Shown in pieces: positions 40,401-57,501 of a DNA stretch of 64,000 nt (its first letter is position 1; the number at the start of each line of letters is the position of its first letter). The stretch is from contig NZ_AJKI01000012.1 in the NCBI RefSeq assembly GCF_000259075.1, positions 1-64,000 on the forward strand. The letters are read 5' to 3'. The stretch is from Marinilabilia salmonicolor JCM 21150 (GTDB lineage: Bacteria; Bacteroidota; Bacteroidia; Bacteroidales; Marinilabiliaceae). Under the pieces are notes generated by a model. It was not told the DNA's origin and did not search any database. It worked only from the letters and a program-made list of their open reading frames with translations. The position numbers and the translations under genes are program-made.

Positions 40401-40834
40401 GAATGGGGCCTCCCCTAGCCCCTCCCAAGGAGGGGGATTGATTCACTTTAGAATCCGGAATAGCTATACATCTGGTAGATTTTTCTGCTTTGAGCATTCC
40501 GCTATTACGCCTGATTGCCAACAAGTCCATGCTCTTTGCTCCACATCCGGTGTACTGCGGACCTTACGCAAAGTCACCCTTGGGGGAATTCAGGTAAAAC
40601 TATATAATCTGCGTTCATCTGCGTCATCTGCGGACTCCCCAAGTTGCGAAGCAACAAGCCCCACGCAGTGCAATTATCAATTATCAATGACCAAATATCT
40701 GCGTTCATCTGCGGAAACCACAAGTTGCGTAGCAACAAGCCGCACGCAGTGCAATTCGCGTTCATTCGTGCAAATTAGGTGACACCCAAAAGTTGCGTAG
40801 CAACTCAAAGCTCAAAACCCTCATCTCTCACCTC
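40401..40834. repeat. Spacer with GTTGCGAAGCAAC palindromes
   Basis: Palindromes lie at 40643-40655, 40724-40736 and 40792-40804, with CTGCGTTCATCTGCG and CGCACGCAGTGCAATTC words between them. 40440-40600 holds no recognisable feature. A 163-residue plus-strand frame crossing from upxY is repeat-derived. Confidence 0.6.
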
Positions 40835-41641
40835 TCAACCCTCAACTCTCAACTCCTTCCTCACCTTCTCCCGCTCTTTCTTCAGCCCGGCAAGTTCCTT
40901 CAACACAAAAGAGGTCTCATAGCCATCACGAATGGCCTCTTTGTCGAATTTCTCCATGACAATGTAGTAATATCCCTCACCGATAAACTGTACCTTCAGC
41001 GGCTGATCCGGATTGGTGGCAATAAAATTGATGGCTCCGTTGTCAGCACCATCCATATAATTGACGATTTCCCATTTATTGCCGCCATCCTCAAATCGAC
41101 GGTTGTGAAAACCATCTTCGGGGACTTTCTCTGACGTCACAGACTCTCCTGCATTATATACTTTTATCTGATTGTGATGAATCCATTTATCCCCGAAATA
41201 CCTGCTGGAGATGTAGAATTCACCTTCGGTATCTAAGTGCGCCCGGAGAAAGGTCCGATTGTAACTATTCTCTGGTCTTTGCCGCTTATGAATCAGTATC
41301 GGTTTGGCACCGTATTCATCCGACCGGATAAAGTTTTTCATCAGGGGTTCCAGCTCTTTCTCTTTCACCGCAATCATACTGTCCAGGTAAGCCAGATTTC
41401 GCTCTTTTTCCTTCCGGTCGATGTCTGCCAACAATCTTTTGGCATCAGCCACCTGCTCTGTGAGGCTTTTATACTCCCTCATCAGCGTATCCAGTTTAAG
41501 CCGTGCCAGATTAAACTTGCCGCTGTCCCGCAGCATCTCTGCCTCCTGCAACTTCTCCCCGGCCAACTCCTCCTGCGACGGACCGCAACTTACTGCCAAT
41601 ATCAGCATCAGCAATCCCGGTAAATATATGGTTCTTATCAT
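40835..41641 (-). CDS. Lipoprotein with coiled-coil segment, unknown function
   Basis: The 268-aa protein begins MIRTIYLPGLLMLILAVSCG, with lipobox AVSC. Residues of about 25-105 are rich in charged heptads (KLQEAEMLRDSGKFNLARLK) and probably form a coiled coil or helical hairpin. The C-terminal half is beta-rich and I recognise no domain. The last residues (KKEREKVRKELRVEG) run into a word repeat, so the end may have drifted. It is predicted to sit in the envelope. It is a lone gene. Confidence 0.7.
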   Translation of the reverse strand: MIRTIYLPGLLMLILAVSCGPSQEELAGEKLQEAEMLRDSGKFNLARLKLDTLMREYKSLTEQVADAKRLLADIDRKEKERNLAYLDSMIAVKEKELEPLMKNFIRSDEYGAKPILIHKRQRPENSYNRTFLRAHLDTEGEFYISSRYFGDKWIHHNQIKVYNAGESVTSEKVPEDGFHNRRFEDGGNKWEIVNYMDGADNGAINFIATNPDQPLKVQFIGEGYYYIVMEKFDKEAIRDGYETSFVLKELAGLKKEREKVRKELRVEG

Positions 41642-41736
41642 CCCTGAAATTCTTGTTTCAAAAAAATTGAATTACAAATTTAACGGAAATTGCGGGAGTC
41701 ACGACATGAAAAGGGAAAAATGATGGAAGGGTTTTA

Positions 41737-41919
41737 TAATGAGTATAGCCCCCGGGTTTAGCCGGGGGATAAAGAACGTACCAACCAATGAGCATGAGCC
41801 GGCTTCAAGCCGGCTTTCCAAAAAACAGACAAAGCATTTGTTATCTTCAGAAGCCGGCTAAAATGAGAAGTTGTCCTATTAAAGAATCCCCCGCCTGAAG
41901 ACGGGGGCTAACCTCATGA
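41737..41919 (+). repeat. Composite palindromic element, copy 3 (reference copy)
   Basis: This 183-bp element begins TAATGAGTATAGCCCCCGGG and ends GACGGGGGCTAACCTCATGA. The ends are inverted repeats of each other (ATGAGTATAGCCCCCG against TCATGAGGTTAGCCCCCG). Internally there are GCCGGCTTCAAGCCGGC and AGAAGCCGGCT. It has no coding capacity. It resembles a miniature inverted-repeat element or a large REP-type element. Other copies are at 23363-23557 (reverse), 39445-39630 and 43347-43545. Confidence 0.75.
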
Positions 41920-42014
41920 ACTATTAATATTGAAATAATCTTTATTCTTGATTTATAGAATTCATTTGCTATGATGCCACAGCTGGTGTATGATAATTTT
42001 GTTGGGCGTTGACC

Positions 42015-43136
42015 TTACTTCATTATTACAAATTCTCTAAAATTATCTTTATCTATCACATTGCTCGCTGCATCATATGATTCAATAAATGTCTTAGGCA
42101 ATTTAGAAGTCTTCTTTTTTTTCCATTTAAATTCGTATCCTGTTATTTTGCCACTGTTTTCTTCCACAAAATCAACTTCTTGTTGTTGTTTGGTTCTCCA
42201 AAAATATGTTCGTGCAAGACTCTGCTTATACTCGATTTGTTTTATTCTCTCGGATATTAAAAAGTTTTCCCATAAGGCACCTTTATCTGTTCTTAATTCT
42301 ATTGGATTAAAATTGCCTATAACCATATTCCTAACACCATTATCAAAGAAATAAATTTTCTTGTTCGTTTTTATTTCATTTCGAACATTTCTACTAAAAC
42401 TCCCCAATTTGAAAATAATATATCCTTTTTGAAGAATATCAATGTACTTACTAATCGTATTTTTATCCACATTAACAATCTGTGCCAATTCTGAATAGTT
42501 TACTTCACTTCCTACCTGAAGAGCTAATGCCTGAACCAGTTTTTCAAGCACGTCAGGCTTTCTAATATCAGAATATGATAAAATATCCTTGTACAAATAG
42601 CTATTTACCAAATTTCGAAGAACACTAATTTCATCCCCAACATTATTCAGAACATCAGGATAGAATCCATAAAGTAATCTATTTTCTAACTGTTGTTCTG
42701 AATTCAAATAACCATGATGGTTTTCAAATTCTTCCCACGAAATTGGAAATAATTGATATTCCCATTTTCTGCCAGTCAACGGTTCATTTATCCTATTAGT
42801 TAAATCAAAAGAAGATGAACCACTTGTAAATAATTGAACATCTTTGAACCTATCTGTAATAATTTTCATTGTTAGTCCAACTCCTTCAATTCTTTGGGCT
42901 TCGTCAATAAATACAAATTTATATTTCCCTAAAATTGCTCGTATTTGTTCTGTATTCGGTTCTGTTAATAATGTCCTTGTTTTGGGGTCATCTCCATCAA
43001 GTAGCAAATAGTCTTTTGATTCAAGTATTGATTCAATTAGAGTTGTTTTACCTACCTGCCTTGGTCCAATAACAACTATCGCTTTACCTGAACCTATTCT
43101 TTTTTCAATTCTTTCTCTTAAGTACCTTGAATACAT
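42015..43136 (-). CDS. AAA-type ATPase with DUF4143 domain
   Basis: The 373-aa protein has Walker A GPRQVGKT at residues 24-31 and Walker B YKFVFIDEAQ, followed by FTSGSSSFDL. A winged-helix-like segment (SELAQIVNVDKNTISKYIDI) and a C-terminal DUF4143 region with QQEVDFVEENSGKITGYEFK complete it. It is the same general family as the gene at 30913-32253 but a different subgroup. It is more A/T-rich than its neighbours and is flanked by composite repeat elements, which fits acquisition by transfer. Function is unknown. Confidence 0.88.
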   Translation of the reverse strand: MYSRYLRERIEKRIGSGKAIVVIGPRQVGKTTLIESILESKDYLLLDGDDPKTRTLLTEPNTEQIRAILGKYKFVFIDEAQRIEGVGLTMKIITDRFKDVQLFTSGSSSFDLTNRINEPLTGRKWEYQLFPISWEEFENHHGYLNSEQQLENRLLYGFYPDVLNNVGDEISVLRNLVNSYLYKDILSYSDIRKPDVLEKLVQALALQVGSEVNYSELAQIVNVDKNTISKYIDILQKGYIIFKLGSFSRNVRNEIKTNKKIYFFDNGVRNMVIGNFNPIELRTDKGALWENFLISERIKQIEYKQSLARTYFWRTKQQQEVDFVEENSGKITGYEFKWKKKKTSKLPKTFIESYDAASNVIDKDNFREFVIMK

Positions 43137-43237
43137 TTTCTTTTTTATTCAAAGATAATACTTTTCGTGATTTTATTCACCAATAGTTATATTTTCAAGT
43201 GAATTACAATGTTTTTCTGCTTGCGCCCAACGAAATA

Positions 43238-43275
43238 CAATGAGTCTAACCCCCTGATTTAGCCGGGAGTATTGA
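43238..43275 (+). repeat. Truncated left end of the composite element
   Basis: ACAATGAGTCTAACCCCCTG and TTTAGCCGGGAG match the left end of the 183-bp element, after which the match stops. It is probably a broken copy. Confidence 0.55.
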
Positions 43276-43346
43276 TGAATAAGAACATACCGGGTCTGAT
43301 CCATCATGATAGGGAAAAAAAGAACAATAATTTCGATCCATAGAAT

Positions 43347-43545
43347 TTATAATGAGTATAGCCCCCGGGTTTAGCCGGGGGAATATTTGAAACGCCACAC
43401 AAATCAGGAGAGCCGGCTTCAAGCCTGTTTTTCGAAAAACATTCAAGAGATTAGTTTTTTCTTAGAAGCCGGCTCAAAGCCGGCTGACAAAGAAGTGTTA
43501 TGGCCTCAAAGAATCCCCGGCCTAAAGACATGGGCTAGTCTCTTG
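43347..43545 (+). repeat. Composite palindromic element, copy 4
   Basis: This copy has TAGCCCCCGGGTTTAGCCGG, AGCCGGCTTCAAGCC, AGAAGCCGGCTCAAAGCCGG and a diverged right end (GACATGGGCTAGTCTCTTGG). Copies 3 and 4 bracket the second DUF4143 ATPase gene. Confidence 0.7.
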
Positions 43546-43599
43546 GAACATTTATATTGAAATATTCTGATGGCATAGATTTTCCATAATCCTCTTGAT

Positions 43600-43830
43600 T
43601 TATGGTGTCACCCCTGCCGGGGCTTTTCCTCTCACAGCAACATCATTGCTACCAAACTGTCGCCCCGCAGGGGCTCGTCCACCATAAAAAGAAGGATTCC
43701 AATTTCATAAACCCATGCCCTCAACCCTCATCCTTCTTTGCTCACATCTCAACCCTCATCTCTCATCTCTCCTTGCCCCATGCTCCATGCCCCATGCTCC
43801 ACCCCCTATGCTCCCCCGCTCCCCGCCTCT
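43600..43830. repeat. Second dispersed element and word repeats
   Basis: 43603-43720 repeats the element seen at 36738-36850: TGTCACCCCTGCCGGGGCTT, ATTGCTACCA and CGCCCCGCAGGGGCT in the same order. CTCCATGCCCCATGCTCC-type words follow to 43830. No gene. Confidence 0.6.
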
Positions 43831-43878
43831 TGTATTTCTCCCAAATCTTAACTATCTTAGGCTAAAAACGATAGAACT

Positions 43879-45114
43879 ATGAGTACACAACCCATTCCCG
43901 AACAAATATTACCGGAATTGATTAACCGGTTTGATGACCAAAAAGTAAATGCCAATCCTTCACAACCCCTGATGAAAGCCTGTAAAGAGACGGGCAGTGA
44001 ATTATGGCTCGACACAGGAGATATCGAAGCCATCGACCAACTCATCACCCCTGAAGTGAGTGCCGTAACCACCAACAACACGCTGCTCAACAAGGAGGTT
44101 CAAAAGGGCATATACGACAAGATCATCAAAGAAAATGCCGGACGTTTCGATGAGCTGCCACCTCAGAAACGCATTGTGGAAATTGCATTTTTGCTCAACG
44201 CACTGCATGCCCTGCGACTGGTAAGACGCTATGGCGGTATGGTTAGCGTCGAACTGCATACCGATGTCACACATGATGTGGATGGCATCGTTCATTATGG
44301 CCAGCGTTTTCACAATATCGCACCCAAAAATTTTCTGATAAAAGTCCCTATGTCTCCATCCGGACTGCTGGGAGCGCGTAAGCTCCACGAAATGGGAATA
44401 CCGGTAAACTTCACCCTCCTGTTCAGCGTGCGCCAGAATATGCTGGCTTCCCTGCTGGCTAAACCGGCCTATACAAATGTTTTTATGGGACGCATCGGAG
44501 CCTACATGAAAGACAACCACCTGGGGGAGGCTTCCGGACCCGGAGAAAAAACCGTTCACCACACCCAGAAATGTCTCCATACCCTGAGGCATGACCTATC
44601 CCTGAAAACCAAACTCATCGCCGCCAGTATCCGCGACTACACGCAACTGCCGGCACTGTGCGGCATTGATGTCATGACCATCCCCGCTAAGGTGCTTTCC
44701 GAAGGTTTGGAAAAACTCACCGGCCCCTTCACACCCATGACCGACCACGATTTCCACATCGTTTATGAACCGGGCGTCGCCACCTCCGAGATCCAAATAG
44801 ACAAGCTTTGGAATGTCTCAGAAAACGAAAAACGGCTCTTCCGTGAGTTCCGCACCCATCCGCCCCAATCGGCATGGGAACTGGTGGATATCCTCCGCGA
44901 AGAAGGCATCACAGATATTTTTCCACACCTCACGCCCATCGAAGAACTCTTCATCACCGATGATGGCAAAATTCCCCGTCACGACCGCTGGGCCAGTCTG
45001 ATTTCCCGGGGCGAAACAGCCATCGACACGCTCCTCACACTGGCCGGCGTGGCTGCTTTCACCAAAGACCAGAAAGCACTGGATGAGCGCGTGAAGAAAC
45101 TTGTTAGCTATTAG
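43879..45114 (+). CDS. Transaldolase family protein
   Basis: The 411-aa protein has SAVTTNNTLLNKEV near the N-terminus, typical of the family, and NFLIKVPMSPSGLLGARKL with the Schiff-base lysine of a class I aldolase barrel. It is longer than the classical TalB. It probably moves three-carbon units in the pentose phosphate pathway, or acts as a related aldolase on phosphosugars. It stands alone. The TTAGCTATTAGCTCAT sequence at its end is word repeat. Confidence 0.85.
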   Translation: MSTQPIPEQILPELINRFDDQKVNANPSQPLMKACKETGSELWLDTGDIEAIDQLITPEVSAVTTNNTLLNKEVQKGIYDKIIKENAGRFDELPPQKRIVEIAFLLNALHALRLVRRYGGMVSVELHTDVTHDVDGIVHYGQRFHNIAPKNFLIKVPMSPSGLLGARKLHEMGIPVNFTLLFSVRQNMLASLLAKPAYTNVFMGRIGAYMKDNHLGEASGPGEKTVHHTQKCLHTLRHDLSLKTKLIAASIRDYTQLPALCGIDVMTIPAKVLSEGLEKLTGPFTPMTDHDFHIVYEPGVATSEIQIDKLWNVSENEKRLFREFRTHPPQSAWELVDILREEGITDIFPHLTPIEELFITDDGKIPRHDRWASLISRGETAIDTLLTLAGVAAFTKDQKALDERVKKLVSY

Positions 45115-45218
45115 CTCATATCAGAGATATTCATAATTTATTTTCAGCAAAACAACACAAAACCTTAAATATCCAATCACCTAATTTTCCGATAATAAAG
45201 ATTTTTAATTAGATTATT

Positions 45219-45238
45219 TTAACGGCTTCGCCGTTTTA
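45219..45238. terminator. AACGGC-TTC-GCCGTT hairpin after transaldolase
   Basis: AACGGCTTCGCCGTT is a perfect small hairpin flanked by T-rich sequence. The same hairpin, with slightly different loops, follows the modules at 45932-45948, 49566-49581 and 51601-51616, so it marks the start of each repeat spacer. The spacer continues to 45412 with ATGTTGCATCGCAACAT. Confidence 0.6.
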
Positions 45239-45412
45239 TTAAAAGTCACCGAATGGCACGAATTAACGCGAATTAAAAGATGTTGCATCGCAACATGAAG
45301 GCAGTAGCCTATACATTCGCGTTCTTTCGTATCATTTGGAGACAAAAACATTACGAAGCAACAGCTATACGCAGCACATAACCATTAGTTCAAAACCAAA
45401 AACTCATAATTC

Positions 45413-45814
45413 ATGCCAGATCTCTTAGCCCAAAATCAAATCCTTTACAAGGATGAATCCTTTAAAATTATTGGTGCCGCAATGGAAGTCCACCGCGAAC
45501 TTGGCCCGGGTTTCCTCGAAGCTGTCTACCAGGAAGCACTCGAAATTGAATTCAAAAACAAAAACATCCCATACAAAAGGGAAGTACCACTAGAGATAAG
45601 TTACAAAAACCACACTTTAAAGAAAAAATACACTGCAGACTTCATCTGCTACGACAAAATAATCGTGGAAACAAAGGCTTTATGCGATCTGAATTCTGGA
45701 CACCAGTCACAGCTTTTAAATTACCTTAAAGCGACAAATAAAAGACTGGGAATACTCATTAATCTTGGAAAACCGAGATTACAGCATAAAAGAACCATCA
45801 ATAACCTATTCTAA
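45413..45814 (+). CDS. GxxExxY protein
   Basis: The 133-aa protein carries the naming motif GPGFLEAVYQEAL at about residues 36-48, then KYTADFICYDKIIVETKA, a stretch resembling PD-(D/E)xK nuclease cores. It ends LGILINLGKPRLQHKRTINN. The family is common in Bacteroidota repeat-rich regions and has no proven role. It is bounded by the same hairpin and palindrome spacers as the toxin-antitoxin modules downstream, so it may belong to the same set of exchangeable cassettes. Confidence 0.88.
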   Translation: MPDLLAQNQILYKDESFKIIGAAMEVHRELGPGFLEAVYQEALEIEFKNKNIPYKREVPLEISYKNHTLKKKYTADFICYDKIIVETKALCDLNSGHQSQLLNYLKATNKRLGILINLGKPRLQHKRTINNLF

Positions 45815-46429
45815 AGATAAGTCACCAAATATTCATAAATTATCATTTTTAAACCAACCATAATCCGGAGAATACCTTAAAACCCAAAATAATCATATTT
45901 TAAGGAAAAAGATGTTTACAGATAGACTACTAAACGGCTGCACCGTTTGTTGAGGTGTCACTGAATGTCGCAAAGAACAAGAATGGGAAAGAACTGCAAG
46001 CAGCGATTCTAAAGTGTTGCGAAGCAACAAATGTTCGAAGGGAATAATTCGCGTTTTTTCGTGCCATTCGGTGACCAAAAGTTGCGAAGCAACAAGCCAC
46101 ACGCAGTGCATTAATTCGTGGACAAAATGTCGCAAGCCACCTCCTAACCCTCTGAACTTCCGCCCCTACCCCCGTAAACCCCAAATTCCCCTCCATTTTT
46201 ATCCACTTTCCCCGAAACTTCCCTATTTTTGTAACGTAGTACAATATGTTTTTTCCAGGTGGGCCAACTGTGACCCACCGCGCCGCAGGCGTGGAGGAAA
46301 CGCAATGATCAATGATCAATTACCAATGGTCAATTACCAATAATCTGTATTCATCTGTGCCATCTGCGGACAACCCTTAGTTGCGAAGCAACCGCCGCCC
46401 GCAGGGCCAAGTACAATTAGTGGAAAAAA
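45815..46429. repeat. Repeat spacer before wzt 5' fragment A
   Basis: It holds an AACGGC-type hairpin (45932-45948), palindromes GTTGCGAAGCAAC at 46016-46028, 46081-46093 and 46380-46392, and a promoter-and-leader block at 46212-46308 that recurs at 51279-51376. Minus- and plus-strand frames here are repeat-derived. Confidence 0.65.
46212..46308 (+). promoter_or_regulatory. Promoter and structured leader, copy 1
   Basis: The 97-nt block contains TATTTTTG (46224-46231, exact TAnnTTTG), then GGTGGGCCAACTGTGACCCA, a hairpin leader, and GGAGGAAACGCAATGA, which looks like a strong ribosome-binding site and start codon. The frame after it is only 12 codons long. A close copy is at 51279-51376. It may be a transplanted operon promoter that lost its gene. 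Confidence 0.5.
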
Positions 46430-46519
46430 ATGAGCAATGCAGTAATCAAAATAGGAAAACGCTCCCACAACCTGAGCGAAATAAAAACTATAATTGATAA
46501 AATCAATCAAACTGATTAA
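46430..46519 (+). pseudogene. wzt 5'-end fragment A
   Basis: The first eight codons (MSNAVIKI) and the upstream GGGCCAA...ATTAGTGGAAAAAA leader match the start of the intact wzt at 51868. The frame then diverges and stops after 29 codons. It is a broken start, not a functional ATPase, and lies directly upstream of an antitoxin-PIN pair. Confidence 0.6.
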
Positions 46520-46549
46520 CTTTACCTATAACCGATAAAAGACCATACC

Positions 46550-46774
46550 ATGCAAAACATACAAATTGAAAATAAAAAAAACAGCCTTATTTTAACCATT
46601 AACAAGAAAGGATTAGATCAGGATTACCTTATCAGACTCGTGAAACGATTACAAACAGAGGATCTGATTTATAAATCGCAAATAAACGACAATATTCTCC
46701 AGATAGCCGAAGATCTAAATCTTGATTGGTGGAACAAAAACAAGGAGGACTTTTTGAGTACAAAGAAAAAATGA
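46550..46774 (+). CDS. Putative antitoxin of a PIN-type module
   Basis: This 74-aa protein (MQNIQIENKKNSLILTINKK) is small, charged and has no domain I can name. It overlaps the PIN-domain gene by 4 nt (ATGA), the usual arrangement of an antitoxin upstream of a VapC-like toxin. The assignment rests on that context. The beta-strand-like N-terminus and helical C-terminus (LNLDWWNKNKEDFL) would fit a toxin-wrapping tail. Confidence 0.7.
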   Translation: MQNIQIENKKNSLILTINKKGLDQDYLIRLVKRLQTEDLIYKSQINDNILQIAEDLNLDWWNKNKEDFLSTKKK

Positions 46775-47178
46775 ACAAAAAAGCCCTGGTTGTCGATACC
46801 AATATTATTTTCTCAGCCTTAATACCTGATCAGTCAAGAATCAGAGATCTGTTTTTTGAAAGTGATATCCTGTTTTATGCTCCAAATTATCTTATTTACG
46901 AGATTTATGCTCATAAAGAAAAGTTGCTTAAGAATTCAAAGCTTAATGAACAGGAGTTCTATATTATTCTAAACAATCTTCTGGAGTGTATTCAGTTCGT
47001 TCCAATTGCTTTAATCGATCAAACCTCAAAGAAAAAAGCGTACATGCTTTGCAAAGACATCGATGAAAAAGATACTCCATTTGTTGCTTTATCAATTTAT
47101 CTCAACCATCCTCTTTGGACTGGTGATAAAGCGCTTAAAGTTGGACTGAAAAGAAAAAACTTTGAATTACTGTTTTAG
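46771..47178 (+). CDS. PIN-domain protein (VapC-like toxin)
   Basis: The 135-aa protein starts at ATG 46771, which overlaps the antitoxin stop; an earlier frame start is inside the antitoxin. The PIN acidic residues are present: Asp in VVDTNIIFSAL, Glu in NYLIYEIYAH, Asp in DIDEKDTPFVAL and Asp in WTGDKAL. VapC-type toxins are Mg-dependent RNases that cut tRNA or rRNA. This is the first of several toxin modules bordering or lying within the polysaccharide export genes. Confidence 0.85.
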   Translation: MNKKALVVDTNIIFSALIPDQSRIRDLFFESDILFYAPNYLIYEIYAHKEKLLKNSKLNEQEFYIILNNLLECIQFVPIALIDQTSKKKAYMLCKDIDEKDTPFVALSIYLNHPLWTGDKALKVGLKRKNFELLF

Positions 47179-47846
47179 AAAGACCAATGATCAATGTTCA
47201 ATGAACAATAATCAATTATCAATGACCTTTTAATCCGTGGACACAACCCAGTTGCGAAACAACATCCGCACGCAGGGCATAGGTCAATGACCAATTATCA
47301 ATAATCAATGACCAATCATCTGTATTCATCTGTGCCATCTGCGGACAACCCAAAGTTGCGCAAGCAACAAGCCGCACGCAGTGCATAAATTCGTTTAATT
47401 CGTTAAATTCGTGGACAAAAAAAAGTTGCGAAGCAACAGCCGCCTGCAAGGCATAAGTCAATGATCAATTACCAATGATCAATGATCAATAAATCTGTGT
47501 TCATCTGCGGACAAAAGAATCATTCAGCCCAAACAGATCTGTCATTCTGAGCCTGCGAAGAATCTCAAAAAAACCAGAAAGTAGTTTTTAATAAATTACC
47601 AATAACCATTAATCTGCGTCCATCTGCGACATCTGCGGACAACCCAAAGTTGCGCAAGCAACCAAGCCGCACGCAGTGCACAATTCGTGAAATTCGATGA
47701 ATTCGTGAACAAAAAAAGGTTGCGAAGCAACAGCCGCCCGCAGGGCATAAATCAATGATCAGTTATCAATAACCAATTACTAATAAAATCTGTGCCATCA
47801 GTGGACAAAAAAACCGTTGCGCAAGCAACCCACTCACATATAACCA
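47179..47846. repeat. Long repeat spacer before wzm
   Basis: The stretch is built from GTTGCGAAGCAAC-type palindromes (near 47250, 47355, 47425, 47647, 47718 and 47815) and ATCTGCGGACAACCC, ATTCGTGAAATTCG and AATGATCAATTACC words, with the TCATTCTGAGCCTGCGAAGA phrase near 47540. No gene and no clear promoter for wzm was seen. Confidence 0.65.
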
Positions 47847-48695
47847 ATGACTGAAAATTACGACCTCATCATCCGCCCCAAGCGGCATGCATTCGACATC
47901 AATTTCAAAGAAATATGGCAGTACCGCGACCTGCTCTATATGTTCGTCAAGCGGGATGTCATCACCATTTACAAGCAAACCGTCCTGGGTCCCATCTGGT
48001 TTGTGGTGCAGCCTATCCTCACCACCGCCATATATATCCTGGTGTTCGGCAATATCGCCAAGATCAGTACCGATGGCGTTCCCGGCACCCTCTTCTACCT
48101 GGCCGGTGTGGTTCTCTGGAACTACTTTGCCGAAAGCTTCAACACCACCTCCAAAACATTTAAGGAGAATGCCGACATCTTTGGAAAAGTCTATTTCCCG
48201 CGGCTCATCATGCCCTTTGCCAAAGTCACATCGGGACTCATAAAATTCGGGATACAGTTTGTCTTTTTCCTGGCTGTGTATGCTTATTATCTGATATCGG
48301 GCGAAGCCAGCGTACAACCCAACATGCACATCCTGTTGTTACCCCTGCTGGTACTCCTCATGGCCATGTTTGGTCTGGGTGCAGGCCTCATATTCACCAG
48401 TCTCACCACCAAGTACCGCGACCTCACCTTCCTGTTACAGTTTGGGGTACAACTGCTGATGTATGCCACCCCGGTGATCTATCCGCTCAGCACCATCCCC
48501 GATGGCAAACTAAAAATGCTTATCCTGGCCAACCCCATCACCCCGCTCATGGAAACATTCAAATATGCCTTCCTGGGTGCCGGCCACTTCAGCTGGATGA
48601 GTCTTGGGTACAGCATCGCCTTTGCAACCATATTGCTGACGGCAGGTATCGTGGTGTTTCATAAAACGGAGAGAAACTTTATCGATACAGTGTAA
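47847..48695 (+). CDS. wzm: Polysaccharide ABC transporter permease (Wzm-like)
   Basis: The 282-aa ABC-2 type permease has about six hydrophobic segments and the family's features: the amphipathic start FKEIWQYRDLLYMFVKRDV and YKQTVLGPIWFVVQPILTT. It forms the channel that exports undecaprenyl-linked O-antigen or capsule with the Wzt ATPase. Normally wzt follows directly; here 3.2 kb of repeats, toxin-antitoxin modules and broken wzt copies separate it from the intact wzt at 51868. Its G/C-rich codon use matches the 5' half of wzt, not the downstream biosynthesis genes. Confidence 0.92.
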   Translation: MTENYDLIIRPKRHAFDINFKEIWQYRDLLYMFVKRDVITIYKQTVLGPIWFVVQPILTTAIYILVFGNIAKISTDGVPGTLFYLAGVVLWNYFAESFNTTSKTFKENADIFGKVYFPRLIMPFAKVTSGLIKFGIQFVFFLAVYAYYLISGEASVQPNMHILLLPLLVLLMAMFGLGAGLIFTSLTTKYRDLTFLLQFGVQLLMYATPVIYPLSTIPDGKLKMLILANPITPLMETFKYAFLGAGHFSWMSLGYSIAFATILLTAGIVVFHKTERNFIDTV

Positions 48696-48711
48696 TCCGC
48701 AAAAATTTATT

Positions 48712-48996
48712 ATCGCTTCGCGATTTTTTGTTATCCGCAGATGACGCAGATGAACGCAGATATTAAAAACAAAACCCAGGCTCATATTAGTTAGTAGCGA
48801 AAGTCCAAGACAGACTGGAGCATATATATGCGTAGCAACAACAATCTGCGTTTATCTGCGGATAAAACCAATGTTGCGCAAGCAACAATCATCTGTGCCT
48901 ATCTGCGTCATCTGCGGATAAATCACGTTGCGAAGCAACCGCCTGAAGGGCCAATAAAAAATTAGTAAAAAAATGAGCAATACAGTAATTAAAATA
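48712..48996 (+). repeat. Direct repeat 1 (spacer plus wzt 5' end)
   Basis: About 285 bp, from ATCGCTTCGCGATT through AAACAAAACCCAGGCT and GTTGCGCAAGCAACAATCAT to the first eight codons of a wzt copy, is repeated almost exactly at 49625-49923. The two copies flank a complete antitoxin-VapC module. Confidence 0.8.
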
Positions 48997-49011
48997 AATC
49001 CACCATCATGA
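48973..49011 (+). pseudogene. wzt 5'-end fragment B
   Basis: Eight wzt codons (MSNTVIKI) are followed by four others (NPPS) and a stop. The stop codon overlaps the ATG of the antitoxin gene at 49008, so the fragment now acts as the upstream frame of a translationally coupled toxin-antitoxin module. Confidence 0.7.
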
Positions 49012-49184
49012 TTACAAAAATCAGTAAAAAAGACTCAAAAGAAGAGATCAAAAAACATCTCGAAAAGATAGAAAGACATAAATCCCGTGATAAAGGTTTT
49101 GATGCTTACAAATTTTGTGGGGCTGTAAAATTTAAAGAAGATGGCTTGAGCCTTCAAAAAAAGATGAGAGATGAATGGGAATAA
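49008..49184 (+). CDS. Small antitoxin of a VapC module
   Basis: The 58-aa protein (MITKISKKDSKEEIKKHLEK) is highly charged and helical. Its 14-nt overlap with the PIN gene downstream marks it as the likely antitoxin. I recognise no DNA-binding fold. Its ATG overlaps the stop codon of the wzt fragment B frame. Confidence 0.7.
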   Translation: MITKISKKDSKEEIKKHLEKIERHKSRDKGFDAYKFCGAVKFKEDGLSLQKKMRDEWE

Positions 49185-49539
49185 AATATTTATAGATACA
49201 AATACAGCTATTTATTTGTTAAATGGTGACACGACGCTTGCAGAAGTTCTAAATGGTAAAAGAATTTTTATCTCCTTCATCTCCCAACTCGAATTGTTAG
49301 GATATAAAATGATTTCTGACGATGAAGTTGAGACCATAAAGCTTATGCTGGATAGTTTTGCAATTATTGATATAAATGATAAAATAAAATCCCTGGTAAT
49401 AACCCTCAGGAGAAAGTATTCCATCAAATTACCAGATTGTATAATAGCTGCGACAGCTATTTATTACGATTCCCCGCTTATTACCTCAGATAAAGGTTTT
49501 AAAAAAATCGAAGAATTAGATCTGATTCTTTACGAGTAG
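49171..49539 (+). CDS. vapC: PIN-domain toxin VapC
   Basis: The 122-aa protein has all four PIN acidic positions: Asp in IFIDTNTAIYLL, Glu in ISQLELLGY, Asp in IKLPDCIIAATA and Asp in LITSDKGFKKI. This is the classical VapC layout and length. It would act as an RNase restrained by the 58-aa partner. The module is flanked by a 285-300 bp direct repeat, so it is an inserted unit between wzm and wzt. Confidence 0.9.
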   Translation: MNGNKIFIDTNTAIYLLNGDTTLAEVLNGKRIFISFISQLELLGYKMISDDEVETIKLMLDSFAIIDINDKIKSLVITLRRKYSIKLPDCIIAATAIYYDSPLITSDKGFKKIEELDLILYE

Positions 49540-49565
49540 CATAAGTCCACGAATAAAAATATTTT

Positions 49566-49581
49566 AACGGCTTGCGCCGTT
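49566..49581. terminator. AACGGC-TTGC-GCCGTT hairpin after vapC
   Basis: A 6-bp stem with a T-rich flank (TTTTG) lies 27 nt after the vapC stop. It is the same motif as at 45221 and 51601. Confidence 0.55.
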
Positions 49582-49624
49582 TTGTTTTGGGTCCACGAAT
49601 TTAACGAATGAACGCGAATTTTAA

Positions 49625-49923
49625 ATCGCTTCGCGATTAGGCTACCGTCCGCAGATGACGCAGATGGACGCAGATATTAAAAACAAAACCCAGGCTTATA
49701 TTAGTTAGTAGCGAAAGTACAAGACAAACAGGAGCATACATGGATAAACAAAATTGCGTAGCAACAACAATCTGCGTTTATCTGCGGATAAAACCAATGT
49801 TGCGCAAGCAACAATCATCTGTGTCTATCTGCGTCATCTGCGGATAAATCACGTTGCGAAGCAACCGCCCGAAGGGCCAATAATACATTAGTGGAAAACA
49901 TGAGCAATACAGTAATCAAAATA
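49625..49923 (+). repeat. Direct repeat 2 (spacer plus wzt 5' end)
   Basis: This is the second copy of the repeat at 48712-48996. It runs from ATCGCTTCGCGATTAGG to the first eight codons of wzt copy C and differs by scattered substitutions and small indels. Confidence 0.8.
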
Positions 49924-50142
49924 GAAAATCTTTCGAAGATTTACCGCCTAGGCGAAATAGGCACCGGCACATTAAGCCACGACCTTAACCGCTGGTGGGC
50001 CATAAACAACCGCGGCAAAGACGACCCCTACGCCCTCGTAGGCGGCGTTAACGACCGCACCGCCAGGGCCACCAAAGGCGAGCACATAGCGGCCCTCAAA
50101 GACATCAACCTGGAAGTAAAACAGGGGGAAGTACTCGGATGA
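49900..50142 (+). pseudogene. Truncated wzt (copy C), Walker A deleted
   Basis: The first 80 codons encode the same protein as the intact wzt (LSKIYRLGEIGTGTLSHDLN and onward), with mostly synonymous differences. At GEVLG, 38 nt that encode the Walker A loop in the intact gene are replaced by one base, which shifts the frame to an immediate TGA. About 14 nt of further homology (GAAAGTCCTCAGCC) remain after the stop. It cannot bind ATP. The divergence from the intact gene suggests an older resident allele, not a recent duplication. Confidence 0.85.
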
Positions 50143-50235
50143 AAGTCCTCAGCCACGAAATATGGATTAATAAAAGTATGATTTTACATTGATAACATGA
50201 TACACATAATCTTGAAAATGGCTTAAAAAAATGCC

Positions 50236-50243
50236 TATATTTA
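50236..50243 (+). promoter_or_regulatory. Candidate promoter of the zeta-like module (TATATTTA)
   Basis: TATATTTA differs from TAnnTTTG at its last base. CTTG lies at 50211-50214, about 21 bp upstream, as a -33 box. The predicted start is near 50250, about 25 nt before the ATG at 50275. Confidence 0.5.
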
Positions 50244-50274
50244 CAACACAAAACCAAAATTAAATCCCGTTGTG

Positions 50275-50496
50275 ATGCACAAACATTTAACGTCAATAAA
50301 TGAAATGAAAATAATTCCGATAGTGGCAAGAAAAGCAACATCAGAAAGCTTTAAAAATGCAATAAAGGAAAAATTATCAGTCATCTTCAAAGAAGGTAGA
50401 AACATTGTTGAAATGCGCCCTAATGGTGAAAAAATTGTTAAGCATCGATTAAATTACACGCATCGTAATCTCGAAAAAAAATTTAAGTTATTGTAA
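50275..50496 (+). CDS. Putative antitoxin partner of the zeta-like toxin
   Basis: The 73-aa basic protein (MHKHLTSINEMKIIPIVARK) lies 8 nt upstream of the zeta-toxin-like gene. I do not recognise its family. Size, position and a promoter upstream make it a likely antitoxin or regulator. A GTG one codon earlier is an alternative start. Confidence 0.7.
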   Translation: MHKHLTSINEMKIIPIVARKATSESFKNAIKEKLSVIFKEGRNIVEMRPNGEKIVKHRLNYTHRNLEKKFKLL

Positions 50497-50504
50497 TATA
50501 ACCC

Positions 50505-51239
50505 ATGGCCCAAAAACGTCTCAGGCTTTTCGCGGGCCCTAATGGGTCTGGTAAAACAACCATTATTAATAAAATTCCTGATAACATCAATCTCGGTTTC
50601 TTAATTAATGCCGATGATATTGAAGCAGAATTACGAAAAAATGGTTATTTCAACCTAAAAAATCATCAACTAAAACTTACCACCTCCGAATTACAAAATT
50701 TTATTTCAAATGAAGGTGCATCATCTGTAAAACTACCTGTCAACAGATTTATTGACCAATTTTACATCTCTAATCAAAAAGTATTTATTCCTAAAAAATT
50801 ATTGAACTCTTACATTGCTGCTGACATTGCTGCTTTATTAAGAATTCAACATGCTAAAGCTGGTCATTCTTTCACTTTTGAAACAGTTTTAAGTCACCCT
50901 TCAAAAATTGATTTTATTACAACGGCCAAACAAAACGGATACCGTATTTATTTGTATTACATCGCTACTGAATCGGCTGATATAAATGTTAATCGTGTCA
51001 ATATAAGAGTTACCCAAAAAGGACATTCGGTACCCGAAGCAACAATCCGGGCAAGATACAAGCGTTCTTTGGCACTTTTATATAAAACTATCAAAGTTTC
51101 AGACAGAGCTTTCCTTTTCGATAATTCAGGCAAAGAAAGTTTCTTCTTTGCTGAAATAACGGATGGCTCGGATGTGGAAATAAAATGCGACGATGAAAAT
51201 ATTCCAGAATGGTTCTTTTCTTATGTATTGAACAGATGA
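50505..51239 (+). CDS. Zeta toxin-like P-loop kinase
   Basis: The 244-aa protein has Walker A GPNGSGKT at residues 11-18, then LINADDIEAEL, and FTFETVLSHPSKIDFITTAK with the following RIYLYYIATES. This order is that of the zeta-toxin/AAA_33-type kinases, some of which phosphorylate UDP-N-acetylglucosamine and block cell-wall synthesis. An activity on nucleotide sugars would be notable inside a glycan locus, but it is only inferred here. It is more A/T-rich than wzm. Confidence 0.85.
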   Translation: MAQKRLRLFAGPNGSGKTTIINKIPDNINLGFLINADDIEAELRKNGYFNLKNHQLKLTTSELQNFISNEGASSVKLPVNRFIDQFYISNQKVFIPKKLLNSYIAADIAALLRIQHAKAGHSFTFETVLSHPSKIDFITTAKQNGYRIYLYYIATESADINVNRVNIRVTQKGHSVPEATIRARYKRSLALLYKTIKVSDRAFLFDNSGKESFFFAEITDGSDVEIKCDDENIPEWFFSYVLNR

Positions 51240-51278
51240 TTCAAGCAGCTTTTTGTTCACGCTTTTTTCTATCTCCAC

Positions 51279-51376
51279 CGAAACTTCTCTATTTTTGCAC
51301 CGTAGTAAAAAACGATCTTTCTCCGGTGGGCTTACTGTGACTCACCGTGCCGTAGGCATGGAGGAAACGCAATGAC
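51279..51376 (+). promoter_or_regulatory. Promoter and structured leader, copy 2
   Basis: The block repeats 46212-46308: CCGAAACTTCTCTATTTTTG with TATTTTTG at 51291-51298, a GGTGGGC...GACTCACC hairpin, and GGAGGAAACGCAATGA. The frame after the ATG stops after three codons, and an antitoxin remnant starts 14 nt further on. Confidence 0.5.
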
Positions 51377-51385
51377 CAGTTAGCA

Positions 51386-51565
51386 ATGAGCAATGACCAG
51401 TTATCAATAAACCCAACATACAACAAATTAAAGACGCTTGCTGAAAAGTTTCCGGAGGACGAATTTCTCCAATGCCTTCTGGAAACCTATCGTCCATATC
51501 CCCCAACCGATCAATCGGACGATGATTTGCTCTACGCAGCTCTCAAAGAGAAATACAACCTTTAA
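51386..51565 (+). pseudogene. Remnant of an antitoxin-like gene
   Basis: A 59-codon frame starts with word-repeat sequence (MSNDQLSINP) and then becomes FPEDEFLQCLLETYRPYP and SDDDLLYAALKEKYNL. The last part matches the C-termini of the proteins at 55080-55391 and 55413-55928. The N-terminal domain and any PIN gene downstream are missing, so this is a leftover tail of the same antitoxin family. Confidence 0.7.
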
Positions 51566-51867
51566 TGAAGCTTAAAGGGAGTCCACAAATAAAATATTTA
51601 AACGGCTTACGCCGTTTTGTTTTGGGGTCCACGAATTTCACGAATTGTACGAATTTTGGGCCTTCGGCCTTTATGTTGCAAAGCAACATTATTTTAGAAC
51701 TGCTTGCAGTTCTTATAATTCGTGTAATTCGTATAATTCGTGGACCAAAAAACGTTGCGAAGCAACCGCCCGCACGCAGTGCATAATTCGCGTTAATTAA
51801 CGTCATTCGGTGACACAAAAAGTTGCGAAGCAACCCGCACCCAGTGCAAAAAACATTAGTGAAAAAA
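51566..51867. repeat. Repeat spacer before intact wzt
   Basis: It contains an AACGGCTTACGCCGTT hairpin (51601-51616), ATTCGTGTAATTCGTATAA words, and palindromes near 51673, 51751 and 51820. It is the last spacer of this type: none occurs in the 12 kb that follow. Confidence 0.65.
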
Positions 51868-53142
51868 ATGAGCAATACAGTTATCAAAATAGAAAACCTC
51901 TCCAAGATTTACCGCCTCGGTGAAATAGGCACCGGTACCCTCTCCCACGACCTAAACCGCTGGTGGGCCATGAACATACGTGGAAAAGACGACCCCTACG
52001 CCCTCGTAGGCGGCGTCAACGACCGCACCGCCAAGGCCACCAAAGGAGAGCACATCGCCGCTTTGAAAGACATCAACCTCGAAGTAAAACAAGGCGAAGT
52101 ACTCGGCATCATTGGCAAGAACGGAGCAGGCAAAAGCACCCTGCTGAAAGTCCTTAGCCGCGTTACCTCCCCCACCACCGGGAGCATCAGCGTGAAAGGC
52201 CGCCTGGCCTCACTCTTAGAGGTAGGCACCGGCTTTCACCCCGAGATGACGGGCCGCGAAAACATCTACATGAACGGCACCATCATGGGCATGCGCAAGT
52301 GGGAGATCTCCCGCAAGCTCGACGAGATCGTGGAATTTGCCGGCGTGGCCAAATACTTAGATACCCCCGTGAAGCGTTACTCCAGCGGTATGACGGTACG
52401 CCTGGGCTTTGCCGTGGCGGCCCACCTGGAACCGGAAATTCTCGTGGTTGATGAAGTACTGGCGGTAGGCGATGCGGAGTTCCAGAAAAAGGCCATCGGG
52501 AAAATGCAGGATGTGAGTACCAATGATGGGAGGACGGTGTTGTTTGTGAGTCATAATATGGCAAGTGTGAAAAAACTTTGTAACAGAGGGGTTTTAATAC
52601 AGAATGGAAACATTATTTATGGAGATACAGCTGACAAAACAGTAGATTTTTATCAGAGAGGAAACGCAGGTACTACACAAAACCAAGTTTTTATTGAGGA
52701 AAATGATCAGAATAATAAAGGGATACAACCCAAAGAAATAAAACTAACCCCGCTAATTGGAGAAAATATTGATGTAGAATCAGGAGTTAAAATTTTTATT
52801 AAGCTCAAAAACCACTTAGAGAATTCAAATATTACTTCAAGTATTAATATATTTACAACAGATGACATTCAACTTTTTGAAGCCCCATGTTTTATTTCAC
52901 AAAATAAAGATTCAAAAAAGGGAACTTATGAACTTTTGGCAACGATTCCGCCTTACTTTTTAAATGCTGATAAATATAGAATAAAATTAGTTGTTGCTGA
53001 AAATCAAAAGTACGTACTATATAAAAATGAGAACATCCTCACCTTTGAAATCGAAGATACTTCATTTAATAAAGGCCATAGTTTAAATAAAGTACCGGGA
53101 ATTTTAAGACCCAAAATTACCTGGGAGGTCATTCATTCATGA
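51868..53142 (+). CDS. wzt: Polysaccharide ABC transporter ATPase (Wzt-like), intact
   Basis: The 424-aa protein has Walker A GKNGAGKST at residues 83-91, signature YSSGMTVRLG from 171, Walker B ILVVDE at 191-196 and the switch histidine at 229. The C-terminal 160 residues form a separate domain of the Wzt-C type, which in E. coli O8/O9a-type systems recognises the modified end of the glycan. Start 51868 matches three other copies of the same 5' end. Codon use changes abruptly just after residue 229, from G/C-rich to A/T-rich. It overlaps the next gene by 4 nt. Confidence 0.93.
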   Translation: MSNTVIKIENLSKIYRLGEIGTGTLSHDLNRWWAMNIRGKDDPYALVGGVNDRTAKATKGEHIAALKDINLEVKQGEVLGIIGKNGAGKSTLLKVLSRVTSPTTGSISVKGRLASLLEVGTGFHPEMTGRENIYMNGTIMGMRKWEISRKLDEIVEFAGVAKYLDTPVKRYSSGMTVRLGFAVAAHLEPEILVVDEVLAVGDAEFQKKAIGKMQDVSTNDGRTVLFVSHNMASVKKLCNRGVLIQNGNIIYGDTADKTVDFYQRGNAGTTQNQVFIEENDQNNKGIQPKEIKLTPLIGENIDVESGVKIFIKLKNHLENSNITSSINIFTTDDIQLFEAPCFISQNKDSKKGTYELLATIPPYFLNADKYRIKLVVAENQKYVLYKNENILTFEIEDTSFNKGHSLNKVPGILRPKITWEVIHS

Positions 53143-54117: not shown

Positions 54118-54530
54118 AAAAACATCCCAAAATATATGACTGTGCTGTCATTGAAATGCCCACTGTAAAAAATCGAGCTGGAAATATTTCAATTTTTGAG
54201 AACCAACATGAAGTACCTTTTAAAACAAAAAGAGTCTTTTTCTTATATGATATTCCTGCCGGAGAGGATCGGGGTGCTCATGCACATAAAGAATGCCATC
54301 AATTTTTAATTGCTGCAAGCGGTAGTTTTGATGTGCTGTTAGACGACGGTACACATAAAAAAATTGTAAACCTTAATCGGCCTTATTATGGATTACATAT
54401 ACCTCCTGGCATATGGGCACATGAACTTAATTTTTCAGCAGGAGCCATTTGTCTTGTACTAACATCACATGGATATGATGAGGAGGATTATATCCGTAAT
54501 TATCAAACTTATCTAAACTTTATTAGATGA
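54114..54530 (+). CDS. fdtA: FdtA/QdtA-like dTDP-4-oxo-6-deoxyglucose 3,4-ketoisomerase, paralogue 2
   Basis: The 138-aa cupin starts at a GTG whose last bases overlap the previous stop. It keeps [20 protein letters not shown] with both histidines, and [20 protein letters not shown]. It would move the keto group of dTDP-4-oxo-6-deoxyglucose from C4 to C3, the first committed step to dTDP-Fuc3NAc (FdtA) or dTDP-Qui3NAc (QdtA). The stereochemistry cannot be told from sequence. The aminotransferase and acetyltransferase of the pathway follow. Confidence 0.85.
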
Positions 54531-55412: not shown

Positions 55413-55928
55413 ATGCAACTGACTCTTTTAAAAACCACCACCGGGTATATTATTCAAAACCCTCCTGCTTCATGGGAAACGACTCTTCCGATCGGTATTC
55501 TCATAAAAGAGGAAGATTTATCTTTACCCGTAAAAGAGAAGGAAAATAAAAAATTAACAGCAGAAGAACCTACTCCCCATTATCATAAAAAAAAAATAAG
55601 AGGCAATATTTTCTATAAACGTCCGAAGCAGGCAAATCCCAAAGACCATATCATAGAAATTGAAAAAAAAGATAACAACTACATTGTAAAAAAAATTCCT
55701 GCGAATATGCCGGAACGTTTTTACATTAAACTTAACGAACCCGAAAGACGAAAATCAGACAAAATGAATGATGCCACCTATCAGGAATTAAAAGCAATGG
55801 CTACAAAACATCCTGAAAACACACTTTTGCAAAAAAAATTGAAATACTATTCGCCTTATCCTGATGAGAGTGATTTTAGCGATGATGATGCTCTTTTTTT
55901 AGCCCTAAAGGAAAAATATGATTCATAA
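55413..55928 (+). CDS. Antitoxin-like protein, family member 2 (duplicated N-terminal domain)
   Basis: The 171-aa protein has two copies of the short domain seen once in the 55080 gene: residues 1-35 ([20 protein letters not shown]) and about 83-115 ([20 protein letters not shown]). The shared tail, [20 protein letters not shown] and LKEKYDS, follows. Its last 11 nt overlap the start of the PIN-aminotransferase gene, the usual layout of an antitoxin before its toxin. The internal duplication suggests fusion of two adjacent family members. Confidence 0.68.
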
Positions 55929-57501
55929 GTATATTTGGGACAACAACATTTGCCTCGACTTCCTGCTTAATCGTAAGGCCGTAAATCCACTGGCACTAAA
56001 ACTCTTTAATGTTTTCATCGATAACCAGGTAAGCATTTTCGTTTCTTCAAGCCAGCTGCACAATATTCAGTACATGTTTTTCAAGTTATGTAAGCTGCAT
56101 GACATTATTTCAACAGAACAAGCTAAAGACATTTGGGATGATTTTTTCTCTAAAATTGAAATTGTAAAAACACCGGCTTATCTGGACGATGGACACCCTT
56201 TATTGGAATCCGATATTGAAGATTACCTGATCGAATTATCAGCACAAACACTCAAAAACAGTAAAATTATTACCCGCGACAAAAAGTTCCTTCAACAAAG
56301 TAACCTCGCAATCACTGTTGATGAAGCAATTTCAGAAATCGAAGAACAGGAAGAAAAAAACATTTCTTTCCTAAATCTCGAGCAGGTAAACCTTCCACAT
56401 AGAATTGAAATCGAAAAAGGCATCGACCGCGTTCTTACAAGTGGCTGGTACCTGCAGGGCAATGAGGTAAATGCTTTTGAGAAAGAATATGCACAATTTA
56501 TCGGCACCAATCACTGCATTGGTGTAGCCAACGGTCTGGATGCTTTACGCCTTATTTTGCGGGCTTATATAGAAATGGGGCAATTAAAGACAGGAGACGA
56601 AATTATTGTTCCTGCCAATACCTACATTGCTTCTATATTGTCCATTAGTGATAACAACCTGAAACCATTGCTGGTAGAGCCAAATATCAATACCTACAAC
56701 ATCGATCCTTCTAAAATTGAAGAAAAAATCACTTCAAAAACAAAAGGAATCATGATTGTCCATTTATACGGCCAAAATGCCATGTATCCGGAAATTGAAC
56801 ATTTGGTGGGTAAGTATAACCTGAAACTCATTGAGGACAATGCACAGGCCCAGGGCTGTTTTTACGGAGAAAAACGGACGGGTAGTCTTGGCCATGCCGC
56901 CGGTCACAGTTTCTATCCCGGTAAAAACCTTGGTGCTTTGGGAGACGCAGGAGCTGTAACAACCGACGATGAACAATTAGCAGCCACCATTCGTGCCATT
57001 GCCAATTATGGGTCTTCCAAAAAATACATCAACGATTACAAAGGATTGAATAGTCGGCTGGATGAAATTCAGGCTGCTGTGTTACGCACAAAGCTTAGTG
57101 GTCTGGATGAAGACAACAAACAACGCTCAGAAATTGCCCGCTATTATACCGAAAACATAGTGAATCCAAATATCACTTTACCTGTATCAAAAGACTTTTT
57201 CAAACCATCCAACCCTGCCACCATCCAACCTTTAACCCCTAATACCCATGTCTGGCACATCTACCCAATCCGATGTCAACAACGCGATAAATTACAACAA
57301 CACCTTGCCGCCAATGGCATTCAAACGCTCATACATTATCCTGTTCCACCTCATAAACAAAATGCCTATAAAGAATGGAACAGGCAAGATTGGCCTTTGA
57401 CGGAACAAATTCATAAAGAGATTTTGAGTTTGCCGATTAGTCCGGTGATAAAATTGGAGGAAGTGCAAAAAATCACCGAAATAATTAACCATTATGAATA
57501 A
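55918..57501 (+). CDS. PIN domain fused to FdtB-like sugar aminotransferase
   Basis: The single 527-aa frame has two parts. Residues 1-137 form a PIN domain: Asp8 in [25 protein letters not shown] at 43-54, Asp99/Asp102 in LESDIEDY, and Asp121 in [10 protein letters not shown] charged linker (SEIEEQEEK) follows. Residues from about 148 form a DegT/DnrJ/EryC1 aminotransferase with its usual opening ([11 protein letters not shown]), Asp307 in IEDNAQAQG and Schiff-base Lys336 in SFYPGKNLG. It should aminate the C3-keto sugar made by FdtA. The PIN part overlaps an antitoxin-like gene by 11 nt. No stop or frameshift separates the two parts. Confidence 0.88.

Follow-up and report, generated by a model that had tools for sequence, protein, structure and literature searches.

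The window, that is, the whole 64,000-nucleotide stretch of Marinilabilia salmonicolor JCM 21150 DNA analysed here, contains the O-antigen exporter genes wzm and wzt, with a toxin-antitoxin pair between two copies, A and B, of a direct repeat and further modules on either side (Table 1). We refer to this genome as G000 and to four other genomes of the Marinilabilia genus (family Marinilabiliaceae) as G001-G004.

Table 1. Features of the wzm-wzt region, in positions of the window.
Feature	Position	Strand	Evidence or remark
GxxExxY nuclease-like gene, upstream of wzm in G000	45413..45814	+	PF13366 E 2e-40, TIGR04256 E 2e-43
wzt start relic 1	46430..46458	+	blastn, pattern search
Antitoxin-like ORF (46550-46774) and PIN_2 toxin (46771-47178) after relic 1	46550..47178	+	PF10130 E 1e-29
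wzm, ABC-2 permease of O-antigen exporter (282 aa)	47847..48695	+	PF01061 E 4e-18
Repeat copy A: wzm-wzt spacer and first 8 wzt codons (start relic 2, 48973-48996)	48704..48996	+	alignment with copy B
Inverted-repeat element in copy A (31-nt arms, 129 nt between)	48731..48921	.	repeat search
Antitoxin-like ORF (58 aa), 14-nt overlap with vapC	49008..49184	+	ORF list
VapC-type PIN toxin (122 aa)	49171..49539	+	above the cut-off of PF01850 (E 4e-18)
Terminator-like hairpin and spacer after vapC	49540..49616	.	repeat search, blastn
Repeat copy B	49617..49923	+	alignment, blastn
wzt start relic 3 (about 80 codons, then 38-nt internal deletion)	49900..50138	+	88% identical to intact wzt (DNA)
Block nearly identical to G001	50128..51260	+	left end within wzt relic 3; over 1133 bp, 5 substitutions and one indel
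Antitoxin-like ORF of zeta module	50272..50496	+	ORF list
Zeta-toxin-like kinase (244 aa)	50505..51239	+	PF06414 E 9e-9
Leader-like repeat	51274..51410	+	about 80% copy at 46209-46343; further copies in G001, G002
59-aa ORF	51386..51565	+	55% over 49 aa, E 4e-15, to C-terminus of antitoxin-like ORF 55413-55928
Intact wzt (424 aa)	51868..53142	+	PF00005 E 9e-23; about 2 kb beyond copy B

An earlier, sequence-only reading had described a near-exact direct repeat of 285-300 bp. The repeat and its position held, but the copies are 94% identical by alignment rather than near-exact: in the best local alignment, 273 of 291 aligned positions are identical, with 18 gap columns in addition (blastn of copy A against copy B, E about 1e-108). 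Six differences fall in the 28 positions of the left end, six in the 193 of the core (48734-48926) and six in the 70 of the last part, the rates in the core and the last part not being significantly apart (p 0.09). As that reading had it, homology between the copies stops at the eighth wzt codon, and where it had placed only the antitoxin-VapC module and about 85 nt between them, we found the antitoxin-like ORF, VapC and a 77-nt terminator-like spacer. It was silent on two further wzt starts on the same strand, the relic at 46430 and the intact gene at 51868. It expected excision to leave a single spacer upstream of a wzt copy. That copy runs on as wzt for about 240 bp in copy B and is truncated; were the unit to excise now, only this shortened wzt would remain beside wzm, and no operon of wzm, spacer and wzt would be re-formed. 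An exact empty site for the A/B pair was not seen in any compared strain. The stretch 48690-48768 matches the sequence at the wzm end in G002 at 96%; the G002 spacer departs from that of G000 inside the spacer, at about 48769, and holds another module.

The segment 49008-49539 has the hallmarks of VapBC, a PIN-domain toxin and a small overlapping upstream ORF, and is a putative toxin-antitoxin pair. The overlap with a small upstream ORF is shared with VapBC type II modules; unlike theirs, the 58-aa antitoxin-like ORF matches no family in Pfam or NCBIfam. The toxin also matches NF047959 at E 6e-8, under that model's cut-off, and sequence like the hairpin that follows vapC is also found after wzm in G006 and after the ORF ending at 51565. 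The module has no DNA match in G001-G004 (G003 is 89% complete). A search across the order, with two candidates scored per genome, gave matches in 17 of 295 genomes; apart from G000, only one of them (G329, from another family) resembles the module, with a related antitoxin ORF beside a vapC remnant, and the remaining matches span 25-54 bp. Neither wzt nor the A/B spacer was seen in the 3.1-kb stretch around the related antitoxin. A search for a plasmid origin of the VapC pair gave no match, and no transposase was present among the 10 proteins scanned in and around the unit, smaller ORFs being judged by eye.

The VapC repeat is one member of a series. The three relics of the wzt start in the window and the intact gene all lie on the wzm/wzt strand, and each relic is followed by a toxin preceded by a small ORF: the PIN_2 pair, the VapC pair and the zeta-toxin pair, respectively. 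Searching whole genomes with a wzt-start pattern placed all matches in G000 (4/4), G001 (7/7) and G002 (4/4) on the wzm contig and on the same strand as wzm, and a control pattern gave no match in these three genomes; a looser local scan adds an eighth start in G001. The pattern had no match in the G003 genome, and one wzt start in G004 sits on a contig without a wzm match. As a further control, we examined the 80 ORFs of at least 100 aa on contig C12, among which only wzt has a same-strand upstream series of its own start. Start matches elsewhere were found for the ORFs at 54527 (one), 92116 (two) and 100254 (ten, in intergenic repeats).

Relics were present in 7 of the 22 family loci and numbered 18: seven in G001, three each in G000 and G002, two in G045 and one each in G016, G017 and G018. 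This count leaves out blastn matches that lie in the spacer or include no more than 13 nt of coding wzt (e.g., in G012, G022, G026, G040, G041, G042, G045 and G046), as well as one G016 match downstream of the wzt start. Overall, 14 of the 18 relics lead into a toxin-antitoxin, AlbA or GxxExxY module (G000 3/3, G001 6/7, G002 3/3, G045 2/2, G016-G018 0/3). An assembly artefact is unlikely because separately assembled relatives share the pattern. A scan for relics beyond the family covered 25 named loci in which the gap exceeds 200 bp. One of the loci, L066 (M. salmonicolor), repeats the G002 relics; a 28-bp match to wzt 16-43 in L070 and matches in L079, L101 and L128 to internal segments of wzt, within its first 300 bp, were left uncounted. 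The L128 (Kiritimatiellae) match, a 51-bp piece at 1387-1437 that is 88% identical to wzt nt 187-237 and lies in the gap just before wzt, is a possible internal wzt relic outside the family. Separately, a short element occurs at different points in two G001 wzt relics (L012, 12045-12084 and 16482-16521); it has no exact copy in the other loci of the 161 except L010, which overlaps L012.

The way in which the relics differ from the resident gene bears on their origin. Compared with the intact wzt of the same genome, differences fall at codon position 3 in 23 of 29 cases for relic 3 of G000, 25 of 33 for relic 2 of G002, 21 of 28 for relic 5 of G001 and 19 of 25 for the G017 relic; six shorter relics pooled give 60 of 77. 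Between species, wzm shows 66 of 81 and 80 of 100. This resemblance to wzm implies that the relics diverged as functional genes do, and it is a better argument for allele-type divergence than a test against one-third, a null that is lenient since an intact copy under selection adds third-position changes itself. From their sequence, the longer relics look like displaced wzt alleles rather than fresh duplicates; relic 2 of G002, for example, is 92.5% identical to the intact wzt of G000 and 92.0% to its own. Two cases count against the allele reading. The G018 relic is 100% identical to its own wzt over 58 bp and looks like a fresh duplication in place, and in relic 4 of G001 only 21 of 43 differences fall at codon position 3. 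Relics of the anchor gene appear to mark the modules, and relic and resident appear to be different alleles, G018 being an exception and relic 4 of G001 partly so.

A second line of evidence comes from the zeta-toxin cassette. The block at 50128-51260, made up of the zeta module and the 147 bp before it, is 99.6% identical between two species (G000 and G001), and the 222 bp compared of its antitoxin-like ORF (50275-50496), which has no family in Pfam or NCBIfam, are 100% identical. The flanks differ by 9-10%: about 266 bp of the relic on the left contain 24 differences, not counting a longer insertion in G001, and about 371 bp on the right contain 36. The difference in wzm is about 12%. In the wzt relic at the left edge of the block, the 38-nt deletion is common to both genomes. 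Such a sharp-edged block is what recombination anchored on the wzt start would leave, in a direction that we infer. With 5 substitutions in 1133 bp, the block is younger than the divergence of A and B (12 in 263), and the VapC event therefore probably preceded the zeta cassette and dates from before the truncation of the downstream wzt copy. The same comparison reverses the alternative order, in which relic 3 was already dead when the VapC pair arrived.

The exporter genes themselves combine conservation and variability. Homologues of wzm are 96, 96 and 93% identical in G001, G002 and G006, respectively. Among G000, G001 and G002, the N-terminal 250 aa of Wzt are 93-95% identical and the C-terminal part 27-33%, and the genes downstream of wzt differ among the genus genomes, as judged by eye. 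The Wzt C-terminus can select the O-antigen. Given the variable C-terminus and the differing genes after wzt, the locus appears to exchange serotypes.

To survey the wzm-wzt gap, we sought wzm in 71 family genomes, of which 32 matched, and examined wide stretches for 23 of these 32. Both genes lie on the same stretch in 22 of the 23 (G050 being without wzt). The gap spans 480-10268 bp in 20 of these loci and is shorter in two, G006 (221 bp) and G029 (6 bp). Of 80 named loci, 63 have a downstream wzt (three of the 63 are family loci again), and the gap is at most 60 bp in 36 of the 63, against 1 of the 22 widely fetched family loci. Adjacency of wzm and wzt is thus the commoner state outside the family, and in Marinilabiliaceae the two genes are mostly separated by toxin-antitoxin and small-nuclease modules. 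Genes of the GxxExxY type occur in the gap of 18 of the 22 family loci, in 23 copies that are all on the wzm strand, and 4 of the 9 PIN (PF01850) and 8 of the 22 GxxExxY matches in the five genus genomes fall in these arrays. One more PIN match, in G002, belongs to the aminotransferase fusion described below. Inspection by eye of loci outside the family revealed ORFs between wzm and wzt that look like AbiEii-type toxin-antitoxin pairs (L070, L080) and others that resemble four-helix-bundle proteins (L094, L101, L132). The wzm-wzt gap may attract small modules beyond Marinilabiliaceae.

The spacers carry motifs (ATCTGCG.., GTTGCGAAGCAAC) that are nearly confined to the O-antigen locus (window 40617-51835, and C12 to 111 kb). 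On C12 we found 12 of the 13 matches to ATCTGCGNCATCTGCGGA, with no control match, and all 11 matches to GTTGCGAAGCAAC, on one strand, with one control match. Similarly, the wzm contig carries all seven ATCTGCGNCATCTGCGGA matches in G001 and, together with C17, a contig that continues the locus by gene content, six of the seven in G002; seven other family genomes tested had none. The two copies of the leader-like repeat (46209-46343 and 51274-51410) carry what we take to be a possible Bacteroidota promoter motif, and neither has a match in Rfam. A structured RNA was considered and rejected, as the sole Rfam match is below threshold (E 0.94) and lies inside the wzm coding sequence. The 59-aa ORF that overlaps the second copy has similar lone counterparts in G001 and G002, which suggests that these ORFs may be orphan antitoxins.

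The antitoxin-like ORF 55413-55928 overlaps the start of another gene (55918-57501, + strand), which encodes a DegT/DnrJ sugar aminotransferase (PF01041 E 3e-99) joined in frame to a PIN-type domain. The PIN match is under the cut-off here, and the same fusion in G002 has a PIN_3 match above it. Structure prediction for the N-terminus of the fusion gave a pLDDT of 53.7 and was set aside, and searches found neither a solved structural relative of it nor literature on such a fusion. As for known defence systems, a PADLOC scan of 10 proteins returned PtuA for the zeta kinase (E 4e-5), pAgo for an AlbA protein (E 4e-7) and the candidate models PDC-S09 and PDC-M05A for an MNT protein (best E 4e-15), all of which we rejected.

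The best reading of the VapC repeat is that of one scar within a larger structure of added modules. We lean towards the view that the wzm-wzt junction is an accretion site, at which recombination on the wzt start and spacer brings in cassettes and new wzt alleles, the VapC repeat recording one such event. Incoming DNA with a toxin-antitoxin or nuclease module, often together with a new wzt allele, would recombine at the resident wzt start and the repetitive spacer, and its other end would join either illegitimately or through homology with a further spacer repeat. After each event, an intact wzt would stand to the right of the new module, with the 5' end of the resident gene surviving on the left as a relic. 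Copy A, the VapC pair and copy B would record one event, from a time at which the gene downstream was probably a complete wzt, and a later zeta-toxin cassette, bringing another wzt downstream, would have truncated that gene. To the repeats, relics, modules, allele-like divergence and sharp-edged zeta block observed here, the model adds a recombination route, an order of events and selection for one intact wzt, all of which we infer. Several observations count against it. Four of the 18 relics precede wzt without a module, and the model gives no simple account of the relics that lie upstream of wzm, one in G000 and four in G001. In addition, of the nine other family genomes with a wzm match, four (L039, L043-L045; more diverged wzm, 51-59% identical; 1.5-kb flanks only) have wzt within about 160 bp of wzm.

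The sequence-only reading had named insertion by duplication as one possibility. In its full form, the insertion of the VapC pair at codon 8 of wzt would itself have duplicated, in place, about 290 bp comprising spacer and gene start, with no foreign wzt involved. The anatomy fits: long direct repeats of the target lie on both sides of a module that has no DNA match in the four genus relatives, the divergence of the A/B core is lower than the third-position divergence of wzm between species (66 in 849 bp), and G018 offers a fresh 58-bp duplicate. We nonetheless consider this origin rather unlikely, for the copies are only 94% identical and belong to a series, the longer relics differ from the resident wzt as functional alleles do, which target duplication followed by decay does not predict, and the edges of the zeta cassette show horizontal exchange.

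Two other explanations centre on the 191-bp inverted-repeat element. Slippage or unequal crossing-over at this element could have duplicated the spacer in tandem, the toxin-antitoxin pair entering between the copies later. The outer boundary of the inverted repeat does coincide with the start of the high-identity core (48731-48734), both copies form strong hairpins when folded as DNA (z -6.4 for 48696-48973 in copy A, -4.8 for 49617-49899 in copy B), and the GxxExxY copies inside G002 are similar by eye. A tandem duplicate would, however, be expected to carry more of wzt, whereas copy A stops at codon 8, where the module starts, and most relics are followed by modules, which makes this scenario improbable. 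Even harder to credit is a history without any single duplication, in which the element inserted twice, independently, into two spacers that had the wzt start in common beforehand. The element does make up 191 of the 293 bp of copy A, and the match is poorer in the flanks left of the core; yet its interior has no match in the G000 genome outside A and B, and it ends at almost the same distance from the wzt start in both copies (52 bp in A, 53 bp in B).

The accretion that we favour has its nearest precedents in sequential-displacement arrays and in insertion with long target duplication, from which it differs in what is carried, in the gene that serves as anchor and in having its relics upstream, as far as the available text of the sources goes. 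The type VI secretion effector-immunity modules of Vibrio cholerae form arrays by sequential displacement, for which the accessible part of the report proposes homology-facilitated illegitimate recombination (PMC5361080; the process itself is treated in PMC3240628). Those arrays, as described there, share with ours a conserved anchor, serial addition of modules, retained orphans and foreign alleles instead of duplicates. They push old immunity genes and effector ends downstream, whereas here an O-antigen exporter operon hosts the array, 5' relics of wzt lie upstream of the intact gene, and toxin-antitoxin and small-nuclease modules make up the cargo. Restriction-modification systems can insert with long target duplication (Nobusato et al. 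2000, as cited in PMC3154945 and PMC3031569); judging from these citing texts, they likewise place a selfish-type module between long direct repeats of the target, but here the copies are 94% identical and the neighbouring relics are allele-type in their divergence. Integron and superintegron arrays with toxin-antitoxin cassettes (PMC2654758, in its available text) resemble the locus in their small co-oriented modules, many toxin-antitoxin pairs and palindromic spacers, while the joints here are homologous spacers and wzt starts. An integron was rejected: the TIGR02249 integrase scored above the cut-off in none of the five genus genomes, all five of which have weaker tyrosine-recombinase matches, none of those listed being on a wzm contig. 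Among titles and abstract openings, a coverage that takes in few subscription journals, no paper on toxin-antitoxin arrays at wzm-wzt was found.

How small toxin-antitoxin modules without a recombinase of their own move between chromosomes is still poorly understood. Here, one conserved gene start has captured several unrelated modules within one genus, leaving scars that can be ordered, and start relics are also present in two more genera of the family. As a tentative extension, the wzt start and its palindromic spacer could act as an integrase-free capture platform with a polarised array, at which ordinary homologous recombination would add toxin-antitoxin or nuclease cassettes with each O-antigen replacement; the relics would then record past serotypes, and the toxin-antitoxin pairs would stabilise the new locus. 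The homology-anchored route becomes directly testable at this locus, and toxin-antitoxin modules may be tied to serotype switching.
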